A stretch of 41,182 nucleotides of DNA from an uncultured Acidobacteriia bacterium (GTDB lineage Bacteria; Acidobacteriota; Terriglobia; Bryobacterales; Bryobacteraceae): NCBI GenBank assembly GCA_903907865.1, contig CAIVPR010000002.1, positions 1-41,182 of the forward strand. The letters are read 5' to 3'. Made by a program: the position numbers and the translations under genes. This document shows, one piece after another, positions 24,014 to 28,944 of this stretch (positions are counted from its first letter, which is position 1; each line of letters begins with the position of its first letter). Under the pieces are notes generated by a model. The model made no database searches, was not told the DNA's origin, and saw only the letters and a list, made by a program, of their open reading frames with translations.

Positions 24014-24703
24014 TTAGGCTGCGGCCAGGTGCCGCGTGCGGCCGGGAGCGACGGTATCGAGGATTTCATCTGCCAAGGCCGTTGCCTCGCGATCCCCGTC
24101 GATACGGGCCACCGATGATCCGTAGTGGGCGAGCAGCGGTGCCGACATCCGGTGGAACTGCTCCATCCGGTGAAGAATCACGCCTTCGGAATCATCGTCG
24201 CGCTGGGTGAGTGCGCCGCCGTCCTTCTGGCAGCGGGACCCACGCAGGGACGGCTTCGAGACCAAGTTGTAGACCGTCCCGCAAACGGCGCATTGGCGGC
24301 GACCGGTCAGCCGTCGGAGGATGCCTGTGGTCGAGACGTCGAGATGCAGGACCGTGGGGCGTGGGAGGTGCAGTTCGTCGAGAAGTGCGTCCAAGTATTG
24401 CGCCTGGGCGGTGGTGCGCGGGAAGCCATCGAGGATGAAGCCGCGGCGCGGGTTTTCGCGCTTGAGCCATGCCGCGACAACCGCGCAAACCGTGGCGTCG
24501 TCCACCAGTTGCCCCGTGCCGAGCAGTTGGCGGAGCTGGAAGGATTCCGAGCAGTTCCGTTTGGCCTCGGCACGCAGGATTTCTCCCGTGGAAAGAGTGG
24601 GGATGCCCAAACTTGCCGAAAGCCAAGACGCCTGTGTTCCCTTGCCGCTACCCGGCGCACCCAGGAACAGGACCACGCGCGCCGACTCCGATTTCACAAC
24701 CAT
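24014..24703 (-). CDS. Adenylate kinase
   Basis: Nucleotide kinase of about 229 residues converting ATP and AMP to two ADP. The P-loop is G15-A-P-G-S-G-K21-G-T23, the NMP-binding DGFPR lies at 92-96, and the LID domain carries C138-x2-C141 and C158-x2-D161, a zinc-type long LID with Asp as the fourth ligand. A TTG start at 24739 would extend it by 12 residues; the ATG at 24703 is preferred although its ribosome-binding site is weak. It is not in a ribosomal-protein operon, where the main adk usually lies, so it may be a second copy. It lies 26 bp upstream of the di-CxxCH protein gene, and its upstream region is shared with the TPR-HTH gene. Confidence 0.92.
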   Translation of the reverse strand: MVVKSESARVVLFLGAPGSGKGTQASWLSASLGIPTLSTGEILRAEAKRNCSESFQLRQLLGTGQLVDDATVCAVVAAWLKRENPRRGFILDGFPRTTAQAQYLDALLDELHLPRPTVLHLDVSTTGILRRLTGRRQCAVCGTVYNLVSKPSLRGSRCQKDGGALTQRDDDSEGVILHRMEQFHRMSAPLLAHYGSSVARIDGDREATALADEILDTVAPGRTRHLAAA

Positions 24704-24763: not shown

Positions 24764-24780
24764 TGGTCCGTACTGGACCG
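24764..24780. promoter_or_regulatory. Dyad operator candidate, copy 1
   Basis: TGGTCC-GTACT-GGACCG is a 6+5+6 inverted repeat with one mismatch (last base G instead of A). Its left end lies 60 bp before the adk ATG at 24703. It shares 11 of 12 half-site bases with copy 2. Confidence 0.6.
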
Positions 24781-24861
24781 CTGCGGATGGTGTCGCAACA
24801 AGGTTGCACTGCCGGCATGTTGGCTCGCGTCGAGTCAAAGATGCGCCGAGATCCACCCAAC

Positions 24862-24878
24862 TGGTCCGCCATGGACCA
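24862..24878. promoter_or_regulatory. Dyad operator candidate, copy 2
   Basis: TGGTCC-GCCAT-GGACCA is a perfect 6+5+6 inverted repeat. It ends 23 bases before the TPR-HTH start codon, where binding would block transcription or translation start. It begins 98 bp after copy 1. Confidence 0.65.
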
Positions 24879-24901
24879 CTATTTGATACGCTTTTACGGA
24901 G

Positions 24902-26488
24902 ATGACATCTGCGGTAAGCATAGATCTTCTGGAAGGTCTGCGTGAAGACCTGGGACTCCGCCGTATCGGGCACGGCATGCACAGTCTGGACGCCTATTGG
25001 CCGGGCCAGCCGTCCTTCGATCCCGACGATCCCGATGCCGCCGCGCTCCTATGCTACGTGGCCCAGTGGGTGGATGCCGGGTGGCGCGACATCAATGTCG
25101 TCGTCAAAGGCTTGGAGGCGTTCCCCAAGGGTTACCGCGCCAGTCTGCGCCTGGCCGACTTCATCCACGTCCTGATGGCCGAAGGAGTGGTCTGGGTCCA
25201 CGAGGAACACGTCGACCTCGCGCTCGAGAATTTCGGGCAAATCCTGTCCTTGAAACACGAGACGACCGACCTGCGGCTGGTCGCGCTGGCGCATTTCTGG
25301 TCGTCGCGCTGCCACCGCAAGAGCGGCGAGTACGATAGCGCCCTCATCCATGCGGCAGAGGGCTACCGTTACGCCTCGGACGCCGGGATGGAACCAATGG
25401 CGGCGGCGATGCGGGTGGCCGAAAGCTGGCTCCTTTTCCAAAAGGGCCGCACCAAGGATGCTCTCAAACTGCTGTCGGAGGCCGATGCCGTTCTCAGCCT
25501 GACGGACGATTTCATCACGCGTGGCAACATCCAGTCCAGCTATGGGCGCATGTACCGCCGCGAAGGCCGGTACGACTTGGCCCTGCGCCACTTCTCCCAA
25601 GCCATCGTTGAATACAGCCAGCGGGACTCCGAGCACCGGAACCTGGCTCGGTCCTTGGCGAACATGGGATATGTCGAGCGGTTGTTGGCGCTTCAGATGC
25701 GCAAGCGGATCGACGCCGACGCCGCCCAGCGCCGCAAGGCCGAGCCGGACTTGCGCCGCGAGTACGAGGCCATGCGGGCGCAGGCGCTGGCACACCTCGA
25801 CCGGGCGACCGAAATTTACAACATCCACGCCCAGCACCGGGGCGCGGGAACGGTGTGCGTCAACAGGGGCCACCTGCATCTGGATTCCGGCGATCTGGAC
25901 AACGCCGCAATGGAGGCCAAACAGGCCTACTCGCTCGGCGAGGCCCGGCACGACCACATCCTGATGGCCCGCGCGAAGCTGCTGGAGTGCATGGTGGAGA
26001 ACACCAAGCTGGAGGACGGGATCGAGGACGAGGCCTGGGTGGCCCATTTGGCGCTGGAGTGCGGTCGGGAGGCGGTCGAGCTCGCCAAGCGCACGGAGAA
26101 CCGGCGGCTGCAGGCGAGGGCGCTGATTTGGTACGGGCTGACGGTCTGCAACACGTCGCCCGGGGCGTCTGATAATGCGCGCGACTTATGCGAGCAGGCG
26201 GCGGGGCTGCTCAAGAACGAGGTGCAGGATCATATTTGGGAAGACCTGCAGACGCTGAAGTCAAAGGTGGTGCGCGGCGGGAACATGGATGCCACATTGC
26301 AGGCTTGGTCGCAAGGGGTGGTGGGGGAGCGAACGTTCCAGCAGTTGACGGAAGACTTCGCGGACCTCATCATTCCCAAGATCTGGGACCACGAGGGGCG
26401 CAAGGTGGCGAGGGTGGCCAAGCGCCTCTCGATTTCCCCAAAGAAGGTGCGTCGCGTACTCGCGCGGCTCGGGCTGCACGGGGCATGA
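24902..26488 (+). CDS. TPR protein with C-terminal Fis-like helix-turn-helix
   Basis: Protein of 528 residues without a signal peptide. Residues about 90-440 are helical TPR-like repeats (LRLVALAHFWSSRCHRKSGE; SYGRMYRREGRYDLALRHFS; CVNRGHLHLDSGDLDNAAME). The C-terminus (about 478-528) ends with EDFADLIIPKIWDHEGRKVA followed by RVAKRLSISPKKVRRVLARL, a Fis/HTH_8-type DNA-binding helix pair. It is probably a cytoplasmic transcription regulator whose TPR part senses a partner protein or signal. A GGAG abuts the ATG, so initiation may be unusual (possibly leaderless). Two dyads lie upstream, suggesting self-control. The stop overlaps the next gene's ATG (ATGA), coupling it to the CoA-transferase. 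Confidence 0.75.
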   Translation: MTSAVSIDLLEGLREDLGLRRIGHGMHSLDAYWPGQPSFDPDDPDAAALLCYVAQWVDAGWRDINVVVKGLEAFPKGYRASLRLADFIHVLMAEGVVWVHEEHVDLALENFGQILSLKHETTDLRLVALAHFWSSRCHRKSGEYDSALIHAAEGYRYASDAGMEPMAAAMRVAESWLLFQKGRTKDALKLLSEADAVLSLTDDFITRGNIQSSYGRMYRREGRYDLALRHFSQAIVEYSQRDSEHRNLARSLANMGYVERLLALQMRKRIDADAAQRRKAEPDLRREYEAMRAQALAHLDRATEIYNIHAQHRGAGTVCVNRGHLHLDSGDLDNAAMEAKQAYSLGEARHDHILMARAKLLECMVENTKLEDGIEDEAWVAHLALECGREAVELAKRTENRRLQARALIWYGLTVCNTSPGASDNARDLCEQAAGLLKNEVQDHIWEDLQTLKSKVVRGGNMDATLQAWSQGVVGERTFQQLTEDFADLIIPKIWDHEGRKVARVAKRLSISPKKVRRVLARLGLHGA

Positions 26489-27678
26489 GCCCGCTGCAGG
26501 GCGTCAAGGTCCTCGATTTTTCACACGCGCTGGCGGGTCCGTATGCGACGCTGCTGCTCTCGGACTACGGGGCGGACGTGTACAAGCTAGAGGCCCCGGG
26601 GGGCAGCGACATGGGCCGCGGGTGGGGTCCGCCATTCGTTGGGCCCGATTCGGCGTTCTTTTTGGGGCTGAACCGCGGCAAACAGGGCGTTTCCATCGAT
26701 CTGAAGAAGCCCGAGGGCATTGGGTTGTGCCTCCGGCTGATCGAGAAGATGGACGTGCTCATCGAGAATTTCCGCCCCGGCACGATGGACCGGCTCGGGC
26801 TCGGCTACGCGGCGGCCCACGCGCACAATCCGCGGCTCGTGTATTGCTCGATCTCGGGATACGGCCAGACGGGGCCTTCGAGGGAAGAAGCCGCGATGGA
26901 TCTAATCGTGCAGTGCTCCAGCGGCCTGGTCAGCATCACGGGCAGCGAGGCTGGCGAGGTGGCGCGGTGCGGCTACTCGGTGGCTGACGTGACGTCGGGG
27001 CTGTTCTCGGTGATCGGAATCCTGATGGCGCTGCGGGCGCGGGAGAAGACGGGGGTCGGGCAGTATGTCGACGTCTCGATGCAAGACTGCATGATTTCGA
27101 CGATGACGTCGAATTATATGTACTATCTGGCGTCGGGGGTGGTGCCTAAGCCGCTCGGGACGGGGTTTTCGACGGTTGCGCCGTACCGCGTCTTCGAGGG
27201 GGCGGACCGGGGCTTTTCGATTGCGATTGGCAGCGAGAAGTTGTGGACTGCGTTCTGCGGGGCTGTCGGGCGACCGGACTTGGAGAAGCACCCGGACTTT
27301 GCGGACAACCGGAGCCGCTGCGTGAACCGGTCGGCGCTGGAGCGGGAGTTGAACGCGGTGTTCGCGGGGCGGACGGCGGACGAATGGGTGGCGATCCTGC
27401 ATGCGGCGGGGATTCCGGCGACGCCGGTGCGGGATTTCGGGGATGTGGCGGCGCATCCGCAGTCGGCCGCGCGGGGAATGTTCCCGGAAATTGAGCATCC
27501 AACGGAGGGTCGGCAGAGGGTGACGGGGCCGCCGGTTAAGTTTTCGGAGACGCCGGGGGGCACGCCGAGCGGGTCGTCGCCGAGGCCGGGGGAGCATACC
27601 CGGATGGCCTTGGCGGAGCTTTTGGGGTTGGATGAAGATGCCGTGAACGGGTTGTTTGAGGCGGGGGTGTTGGGGTAG
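26485..27678 (+). CDS. Class III CoA-transferase (CaiB/BaiF family)
   Basis: Cytoplasmic enzyme of about 397 residues that moves CoA between organic acids, or racemises acyl-CoAs in related members. The start ATG overlaps the stop of the TPR-HTH gene. Family motifs are VKVLDFSHALAGPYATLLLS, the nucleotide site near KLEAPGGSD, GLNRGKQGVSIDLK, and the catalytic Asp168 in SVADVTSGLFSVIG. VGQYVDVSMQDCMI follows. Substrates cannot be told from sequence. Codons strongly favour G in the third position, especially in the last third, unlike the C-rich genes of the 14-17 kb region. It lies 10 bp from the convergent BrnA-like gene. Confidence 0.9.
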   Translation: MSPLQGVKVLDFSHALAGPYATLLLSDYGADVYKLEAPGGSDMGRGWGPPFVGPDSAFFLGLNRGKQGVSIDLKKPEGIGLCLRLIEKMDVLIENFRPGTMDRLGLGYAAAHAHNPRLVYCSISGYGQTGPSREEAAMDLIVQCSSGLVSITGSEAGEVARCGYSVADVTSGLFSVIGILMALRAREKTGVGQYVDVSMQDCMISTMTSNYMYYLASGVVPKPLGTGFSTVAPYRVFEGADRGFSIAIGSEKLWTAFCGAVGRPDLEKHPDFADNRSRCVNRSALERELNAVFAGRTADEWVAILHAAGIPATPVRDFGDVAAHPQSAARGMFPEIEHPTEGRQRVTGPPVKFSETPGGTPSGSSPRPGEHTRMALAELLGLDEDAVNGLFEAGVLG

Positions 27679-27688
27679 CGGCGGAGCC

Positions 27689-27889
27689 TCACGCCGCCGC
27701 CCGGGGTGCCTTTTCGAGGTGGACGGCTTTTTCCGGACCGATGTTTGGCTTCCGGCTTGCCGGGGGCCAAGGGACTGCAGGCTTGTCGAGAAAAGCTTGG
27801 TCGAACTCGGGGATGTCGGAGTAGTCGATGTCGGAGTCTCGCATCCGGTCAATTCGCGCCAAGTCGCTCACGATAGGCTTTTTGTTCAC
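27689..27889 (-). CDS. BrnA-like antitoxin, lacking the usual DNA-binding end
   Basis: Protein of 66 residues, GTG start with AGGAAAGG upstream. The N-terminus (IVSDLARIDRMRDSDIDYSD then IPEFDQAF) matches the BrnA-type phrase DSDIDYSDIPE.D. In typical BrnA the ribbon-helix-helix segment follows; here the sequence instead reads PAVPWPPASRKPNIGPEKAV and ends in PRAAA. It overlaps the upstream brnT-like gene by 41 bp, the usual operon order. It probably still neutralises toxin through its N-terminal part, but may not autoregulate. Confidence 0.65.
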   Translation of the reverse strand: MNKKPIVSDLARIDRMRDSDIDYSDIPEFDQAFLDKPAVPWPPASRKPNIGPEKAVHLEKAPRAAA

Positions 27890-28127
27890 GTCGGTTTCCT
27901 TTCCTCATCGAAATGATCCGGGTGGCGTTGGCACGTGGTGTATGAGCCACAACCACCAGCCGTCCATCCAGCCGACCCCAAGTAACGAGTCGCTCTTTCC
28001 CATAGTCGAAGCGGTCGTCGACCAGTGTGAGACTGGGGCCTGAAAGGACCGTTTCCGCGTCCTCAAAACGTAGGCCATGCTTGGCGAAGTTGGCACGGTT
28101 TTTCGCCTCGTCCCACTCGTATCTCAA
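27849..28127 (-). CDS. BrnT family toxin
   Basis: Small ribonuclease-type toxin of about 92 residues. A longer open frame runs upstream to about 28244, but the conserved start is YEWDEAKNRANFAKHGLRFE, so a TTG start at 28127 (LRYEWDEAKN) is chosen. Further family features are DAETVLSGPSLTLVDDRF, RLVVVAHTPRANATRIISMR, and a charged C-terminus KGNRREQKAYRERLGAN. BrnT proteins fold like RelE ribonucleases and arrest translation when free. The ribosome-binding site is poor and the start could be slightly different. Gene order brnT then brnA with overlap fits the known operon. Confidence 0.75.
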   Translation of the reverse strand: MRYEWDEAKNRANFAKHGLRFEDAETVLSGPSLTLVDDRFDYGKERLVTWGRLDGRLVVVAHTPRANATRIISMRKGNRREQKAYRERLGAN

Positions 28128-28182
28128 TTGCGATTGTATCTCTGGTGTGGACCTCGTTGGGCACTTCGCTATATTTGTTTCG

Positions 28183-28944
28183 GTGCCAGTAAACAAGAAT
28201 CTGATCAGCCTCCTCGTTGTTGCCGCCCTCTTCGCGGGCATCATTGTTTACGGACTGGTGGGCAGTATCCGCACCGGGAACTATGTCAGCATCACGATTG
28301 TTTTCACGGGATTGGCCCTGTGCGGCATCATCATCTTTCTGAACCACTTCCGGACCCGCCTGTTCCTGCGCGAAAAAACCCCCGACCGGATCATCGCCTA
28401 CTACCACAAGAGCATCCGGCGGATTCCCCATTCCGACGCGGCCGCAGCCTACCTCTCGGCACTCGCGGCCGCGTTCTTCGGCAAGTTCGACCAGGCGCGC
28501 GGGGAGTTGGAAGCCATCGACTGGAATGCCACCACGCCGATGTACCGCGGCCATAGGCTCTATGTCTTGTCGTTCCTCGCGCTGCTGGAGGAGACAGATT
28601 ACCCCAAGGCCCTGCGGCTGGCCGACGAGGCCGAACATCTGGAAAGCAAGGACACGGCGGGCGGCCTGAAGGTGCTGGACGGGGTGATCCGGCTGGTGGC
28701 TGACGGGGCGACGCCCGAGCGGGTTGCACTCCTCGCAAAGGTGGCGAAACGGCAGCACGGGCTGATGCCCGGCATGTGCGCCTGGGCGCTGGCGGTACAC
28801 CACATGCGGACCAAGGAACCCGAAAAGGCGGCCGAGTTCAAGGAGTTGTTGCGCATGGCCGTCCCCCATGCTGCACCGATGCAGGGCAACAAGCCTGTGG
28901 TGTCGCCGGGGCCGTCGGGGATTTTTTCGGGTCCCGACGCGTAG
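28183..28944 (+). CDS. Membrane-anchored protein with helical repeats
   Basis: Protein of about 253 residues starting at a GTG (VPVNKNLISLLVVAALFAGI). Two transmembrane helices lie near the N-terminus (NLISLLVVAALFAGIIVYGL and VSITIVFTGLALCGIIIFLN). The rest is a soluble, probably cytoplasmic, helical region with TPR-like pairs (DAAAAYLSALAAAFFGKFDQ; LYVLSFLALLEETDYPKALR). No catalytic motif is seen and no family was recognised. The start lacks a clear ribosome-binding site. It lies 55 bp from the divergent brnT start, so the two may share a regulatory region. The following gene is 18 bp downstream. Confidence 0.65.
   Translation: MPVNKNLISLLVVAALFAGIIVYGLVGSIRTGNYVSITIVFTGLALCGIIIFLNHFRTRLFLREKTPDRIIAYYHKSIRRIPHSDAAAAYLSALAAAFFGKFDQARGELEAIDWNATTPMYRGHRLYVLSFLALLEETDYPKALRLADEAEHLESKDTAGGLKVLDGVIRLVADGATPERVALLAKVAKRQHGLMPGMCAWALAVHHMRTKEPEKAAEFKELLRMAVPHAAPMQGNKPVVSPGPSGIFSGPDA

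Follow-up and report, generated by a model that had tools for sequence, protein, structure and literature searches.

A conserved GTCC-N5-GGAC dyad as the probable operator of a TPR-HTH protein linked to glyoxylate-shunt genes in an acidobacterial class

Introduction

The dyad that precedes a TPR-HTH gene in an acidobacterial contig is, to judge from sequence comparison, a real operator that is conserved across families of the class, and almost certainly a protein-binding switch. We consider it likely that the protein which it serves is the TPR-HTH protein, with the glyoxylate-shunt genes aceA and aceB and the regulator's own gene as the ancestral targets. Proteins in which TPR are combined with a Fis/NtrC-like HTH would probably constitute a new family that regulates the glyoxylate shunt, and its members have so far turned up in this class alone. 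The stretch analysed here, called the window below, is a whole contig of 41,182 nucleotides from a genome of 7.5 Mb.

The Two Dyads of the Window

The TPR-HTH gene (24902..26488, plus strand, 528 aa, ATG start) and the adenylate kinase gene adk (ATG at 24703, minus strand) are divergent, and a preliminary description had placed two 6+5+6 dyads between them, one perfect and one with a single mismatch. Both were found as described. Copy 1 (TGGTCCGTACTGGACCG, 24764..24780, no strand assigned), the probable second operator on the adk side, reads TGGTCC-GTACT-GGACCG, with the mismatch at the last base, and lies 60 bp from adk. Copy 2 (TGGTCCGCCATGGACCA, 24862..24878, no strand assigned), the putative operator at the TPR-HTH promoter, is the perfect dyad TGGTCC-GCCAT-GGACCA and ends 23 bp before the start codon at 24902. 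Both distances are likewise as first given.

In relaxed form, such dyads are not unusual in the window, where 4 matches with at most two mismatches were found compared to 2.43 expected, and 4 or more also occur in 19 of 100 shuffles. Near-perfect dyads are rare in the genome: TGGTCCN5GGACC occurs at 5 distinct sites (4 forward and 4 reverse matches), while the reversed control gives 2 and 3 matches. Copies 1 and 2, which are 98 bp apart, are two of these five sites, and given the other three, the chance of a second site within 200 bp is, by post hoc arithmetic, about 2e-4.

Conservation of the Dyad

Orthologs of the TPR-HTH protein were searched for in the genus, the family, the class, a phylum sample and a close-relative scan, the named relatives in the latter being acidobacterial MAGs, many of them labelled Bryobacterales or Acidobacteriia. 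The protein is present in 18 of the 19 genus genomes, in one of them cut at the contig end; with this partial gene (G008) and the genome without an ortholog (G014) dropping out, 17 of 19 remain. All 17 genus orthologs having upstream DNA, which is where the preliminary description had proposed to look, keep the complete 8/8 core GTCC-N5-GGAC at −28 to −56, counted from where the start codon of the window falls in the alignment. A conserved operator-like element is thus found at the gene's own promoter in 17/17 genus orthologs. The DNA around it is diverged, the mean information per column being 1.29 bits in the dyad and 0.22 in the upstream flank (first 36 columns; 16 full-flank sequences). 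The neighbours vary across the genus loci while the dyad is constant, which means that the dyad goes with the TPR-HTH gene. Since the two are conserved together, self-control of the regulator, as first proposed, would be the simplest reading.

The strict pattern TNGTCCRNNNYGGACNA has 51 sites across the 19 genus genomes (0–8 per genome; 28 for the reversed control), 11 of which are the TPR-HTH promoter; in the window's genome the numbers are 8 sites and 2 for the control. Among the 40 remaining sites 19 were examined, and all 19 are inside an ORF with a length of 70 aa or more, several of these ORFs being doubtful; four lie inside a dxr-type gene (one confirmed). As strict sites also occur elsewhere in the genus genomes, the pattern is enriched at the TPR-HTH promoter but not demonstrably exclusive to it. 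One strict dyad with matching flanks in the window's own genome, TCGTCCGATCCGGACCA (L072:2499-2515, that is, G000:C81:47998-48014), is upstream of a 210-aa ORF without a Pfam match, and may be a promoter site and a further target.

At the level of the class, 47 of 399 genomes have an ortholog, and at that of the family 55 of 237 (both E <= 1e-40); in the phylum sample there are 4 of 396 (E <= 1e-30), all four from the same class. From the 59 non-genus genomes with an ortholog, G435, G446, G279 and G455 were left out because of broken or partial matches, and contigs L047 and L049 were added, which gives 57 non-genus records. We scanned the 300 bp that precede the TPR-HTH start and, in extended records, also those preceding malate synthase; the non-genus start codons were picked by rule and may be wrong, and the site in G085 is probably inside adk. 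Combining the 256 four-base half-sites with spacers of 0–12 yields 3,328 palindromes, of which GTCC-N5 ranked first, with 17/17 in the genus and 27/57 outside it (mean 0.42, sd 1.10); when the spacer is changed, GTCC occurs in 0–1 records. The next-ranked outside the genus, TCCG-N3 and CCGA-N1, are overlapping frames of the same motif. The best unrelated palindrome there, TGCC-N12-GGCA (15/57), was discarded, as it reads as malate-synthase coding sequence. By eye, the wider consensus is about ACTnGTCCGAWTCGGACnAGT.

One can argue that the dyads are chance palindromes in GC-rich DNA, given that relaxed matches are nothing unusual in the window and that the strict genus pattern has most of its sites away from the promoter and many in the reversed control. 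However, the 17/17 conservation and the first rank among 3,328 combinations refute this for copy 2, and we give the explanation practically no weight.

For the 46 strict sites, the distance to a second site of at least 6/8 is mostly 18 bp, with 11 counts, or 17 bp, with 5, pairs of strict sites counting twice; other distances have 0–2 counts, except 9 bp (5). The spacing of 17–18 bp suggests that binding may be cooperative.

A strict GTCC-N5-GGAC is lacking from the 300-bp scanned regions of as many as 30 of the 57 non-genus records, and 12 of these 30 have aceA or aceB adjacent. In three genomes (L126, L127 and L128, from G404, G332 and G133, respectively) the ortholog adjoins a distant gene of the ICL superfamily with 30–33% identity (PF00463 match of 75 bits in L126), and the upstream DNA carries an altered motif near TAGACCGAATCGG, perhaps a coevolved operator.

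The TPR-HTH Protein

The only Pfam models above cut-off are generic TPR ones (TPR_12, E 3.6e-11), the HTH matches being weak, and no NCBIfam model is above cut-off. The AlphaFold model (mean pLDDT 85.8) is an all-helical TPR array followed by three C-terminal helices; the link at 460–477 is predicted poorly. The tri-helical HTH covers residues 479–522 (26336..26467, plus strand), with predicted helices at 479–495, 502–509 and 513–522. The C-terminal 65–69 residues of 19 orthologs are 48–97% identical to those of the window, and the recognition-helix stretch SPKKVRR is invariant in 20 aligned orthologs.

The preliminary description called the C-terminus Fis-like. In a Foldseek search with the C-terminal model (mean pLDDT 67.8, but 86–89 over the HTH), the helices appear to resemble the Fis/NtrC fold, the NtrC4 DNA-binding domain coming first and Fis and PrrA ranking high, although the best E-value is 0.44 and none is significant. 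HTH_8 of Pfam is matched by 1 of 20 members. With the full model, TPR and other helical-repeat proteins are among the 50 Foldseek matches listed. The search of solved structures similarly gave TPR-type chains for the whole protein and weak matches for the HTH, for example 1umq (PrrA) with E 0.27.

Glyoxylate-Shunt Genes

The preliminary reading, which is supported in part, overlooked that aceA or aceB stands beside the gene in at least 33 of the 57 non-genus records. Only 18 of the 57 extended several kb upstream, and the adjacency counts are therefore lower bounds. The strict dyad is present in 21 of the 33 records with adjacent aceA/aceB, compared to 6 of the 24 others.

Two arrangements were seen. 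In the first, aceA and aceB form a divergent pair, with the TPR-HTH gene downstream of aceB; here, the best aceA–aceB intergenic site is 7/8 or better in 13 of 13 loci examined, of which 11 are strict 8/8. The identity of the two genes is given in L143 by E-values of 2.4e-103 for isocitrate lyase and 8.1e-117 for malate synthase (malate synthase A, 837.7 bits), and in the other loci by blast matches. In the second, the TPR-HTH gene is itself divergent from aceA (9 records), and the strict dyad is upstream in 7 of the 9, the exceptions being G390 with a 7/8 dyad and G444 with none. Malate synthase takes the divergent place in G425, G329 and G383, where the strict dyad is present. In G277 there is no strict dyad at the TPR-HTH gene, and a separate contig has strict sites between its aceB and aceA. 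G045, G046 and G390 have no strict dyad despite the adjacent aceA/aceB, with a 7/8 site kept, and no dyad was found in G388, G036 and G498, where the gene is flanked by adk and aceB.

In 35 chosen genomes, TNGTCCGAWTCGGACNA has 13 sites in 12 genomes and its reversed control 0. Eleven of the 13 are at TPR-HTH, aceA or aceB promoters, the exceptions being G010:C127 and G526:C20. On G526:C20, tandem dyads 18 bp apart (L160:2027-2061) precede an ORF that matches Melibiase (PF02065, 44 bits) and may be an additional target of the regulator there.

We also considered genomes in which one of the partners is absent. Among 37 chosen class genomes that lack the ortholog, none yielded a full-strength isocitrate lyase. 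Eleven of these have partial matches of 43–70 bits, which are above the Pfam cut-off and confined to positions 144–250 of 526; true isocitrate lyases give 146–193 bits per half, and the partial matches are read as PrpB-like. A full malate synthase is present in 11 of the 37, and 0 of these 11 have a dyad within the 400 bp upstream of it.

In the window's genus, isocitrate lyase was found in 0 of the 18 genomes searched, and malate synthase in 15 of the 18, unlinked to the TPR-HTH gene. The latter was dismissed as a general target in trans, there being no strict dyad in any of the 14 upstream regions examined, out of 15. A degenerate 7/8 dyad, TAGTCCAATGCGGATCG, is located about 71 bp before the unlinked malate synthase gene on L206 (G424:C166), which makes control in trans possible in this genome. 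The ethylmalonyl-CoA pathway found no support in the genus either, as 0 of 29 genomes pass the cut-off for crotonyl-CoA carboxylase/reductase.

These results bear on the option that the dyad serves as operator for a different, unlinked transcription factor, with the TPR-HTH protein as a downstream effector or partner. This would be consistent with SPKKVRR being invariant even in orthologs without a strict dyad at the promoter. However, the site persists at the TPR-HTH promoter in the genus, where aceA was not found, and malate synthase is without a strict dyad both in the 11 genomes without the TPR-HTH gene and, unlinked, in 14 genus genomes. We therefore regard such a factor as rather improbable and prefer the TPR-HTH protein as the binder.

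Promoter Architecture and Proposed Mechanism

The sequence TGRTACnnT follows the dyad after 5–6 nt in 16 of 17 genus promoters and after 14 nt in the remaining one. In the window, this extended −10-like element is TGATACGCT (24884..24892, plus strand), and it would be part of the TPR-HTH promoter. Another explanation considered was that the dyad forms a hairpin in the mRNA leader of the TPR-HTH gene, since it could be drawn as a short stem and, in the window, ends 23 bp ahead of the ATG. The −10-like element coming after the dyad in 17/17 should, however, place the dyad upstream of the start site, and the site is also present between the divergent aceA and aceB. In addition, there is little covariation, the variable pair positions being nearly independent (2/16: 17 of 46 complementary, compared to 14.6 expected). 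Such nearly independent variation of the half-sites would be expected of two protein subunits more than of an RNA stem, and the hairpin is very improbable.

In the protein-operator mechanism that we favour, a dimer would place its two C-terminal Fis/NtrC-like HTHs into the half-sites of the 17-bp dyad TnGTCCRnnnYGGACnA, at some promoters with the help of a second, weaker site 17–18 bp away, and the TPR array would likely be the sensor of a partner or ligand. In the genus, where isocitrate lyase was not found, the putative operator persists in front of the regulator gene itself, with 8 nt between it and the −10-like hexamer. There it would lie over the −35/spacer region, which fits negative autoregulation. 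In the window, control might reach adk through copy 1 and the CoA-transferase through a shared operon.

Copy 1, adk and the CoA-Transferase

The divergent adk (24014..24703, minus strand) encodes an adenylate kinase with lid domain (ADK, E 1.1e-36; ADK_lid, E 2.4e-10; TIGR01351, 187.4 bits compared to a cut-off of 168). Copy 1 was seen only in the window's genome. The two nearest relatives (L002/L032 and L003/L031) have no adk found near the TPR-HTH gene, and six other genus members with a divergent adk have one strict dyad each. There is no TGRTA-type element between copy 1 and adk. Copy 1 is possibly a chance palindrome. Shared control of adk, as first proposed, is thus weakened, its evidence being copy 1 in one genome, though adk is divergent from the TPR-HTH gene in 7 of 17 genus members and also in some other lineages. 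Acetate activation produces AMP, which would give a reason for an adk nearby.

The CoA-transferase gene (26485..27678, plus strand; family III, PF02515, E 8.9e-126) overlaps the TPR-HTH stop codon (ATGA); its nearest NCBIfam models are all under cut-off. Of the 17 full-length genus loci, 7 have it behind the TPR-HTH gene, as does the partial locus of G008, and the proposed control of a coupled CoA-transferase is likewise weaker than first stated.

Further downstream, a small TPR-like gene (28147-28944, plus strand) has a weak TPR_19 match, and a homolog follows the TPR-HTH gene or the CoA-transferase in 11 of 17 genus loci besides the window. After the CoA-transferase there is also a BrnT-type ribonuclease toxin gene (27849-28244, minus strand; PF04365, 88.1 bits), whose end is overlapped by a 66-aa GTG ORF (27689-27889, minus strand), BrnA-like by eye and without a Pfam match.

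Overall Assessment

Taking all parts together, we find it somewhat more convincing than the contrary that an undescribed family without NTPase or receiver runs the shunt of one acidobacterial class, and that in the genus it was kept when the pathway was lost and has been redirected to itself, adk and the CoA-transferase operon. Counting against the TPR-HTH protein as the binder of the dyad are the 30 records without a strict dyad in the scanned regions, although SPKKVRR is invariant in the 20 aligned orthologs, the non-significant likeness to Fis, and the strict sites elsewhere in the genomes.

Acidobacteria are among the most abundant soil bacteria, and the results point to an undescribed regulator family for acetate use in such organisms. 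They yield a candidate regulator, a defined operator of 17–21 bp and a target pathway, testable with one purified protein, as well as a likely example of a regulator retained after the loss of its pathway enzyme. Our searches of the open-access literature listed nothing on acidobacterial glyoxylate-shunt control, nor any study of an acidobacterial regulon or of a glyoxylate regulator of TPR-HTH type. The passage of PMC11636273 concerned lists A. capsulatum 161 as being without aceA and aceB, and the relevant passage of PMC5506826 holds no operator consensus.

Comparison with Known Systems

The C-terminal model has NtrC4, Fis and PrrA/RegA among its top fold matches, with non-significant E-values, and NtrC sites are also 17-bp dyads with a 5-bp centre. 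In contrast to the NtrC-type sigma-54 activators, no AAA+ or receiver model matched in the 528 aa, which have a TPR array instead. Of the TPR regulators of MalT type, TPR_MalT matches the TPR region with 32.3 bits (cut-off 45), but the window protein has no match to an NTPase or a LuxR-type HTH.

IclR is the dedicated glyoxylate-operon regulator of enterobacteria and also controls itself; no IclR model matched the window protein. ScfR/RamB regulators have an XRE-type N-terminal HTH and an ScfR sensor region, whereas the window protein matches no ScfR-type model, Pfam and NCBIfam giving TPR, weak HTH and unrelated models. The relevant parts of PMC10370305, which also name IclR of enterobacteria, describe a glyoxylate-cycle regulator of the RamB/ScfR family in Paracoccus denitrificans that is encoded beside aceA/aceB, binds CoA esters, and binds a conserved motif upstream of the aceA/aceB operon, found by comparison of many genomes and consisting of two near-identical boxes with an 18-bp spacer. 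As far as these parts go, the likeness is that here, too, the gene and its putative site are linked to aceA/aceB, in 33 of the 57 non-genus records though not in the window's genus. The regulator would be ordinary in kind and new in identity.
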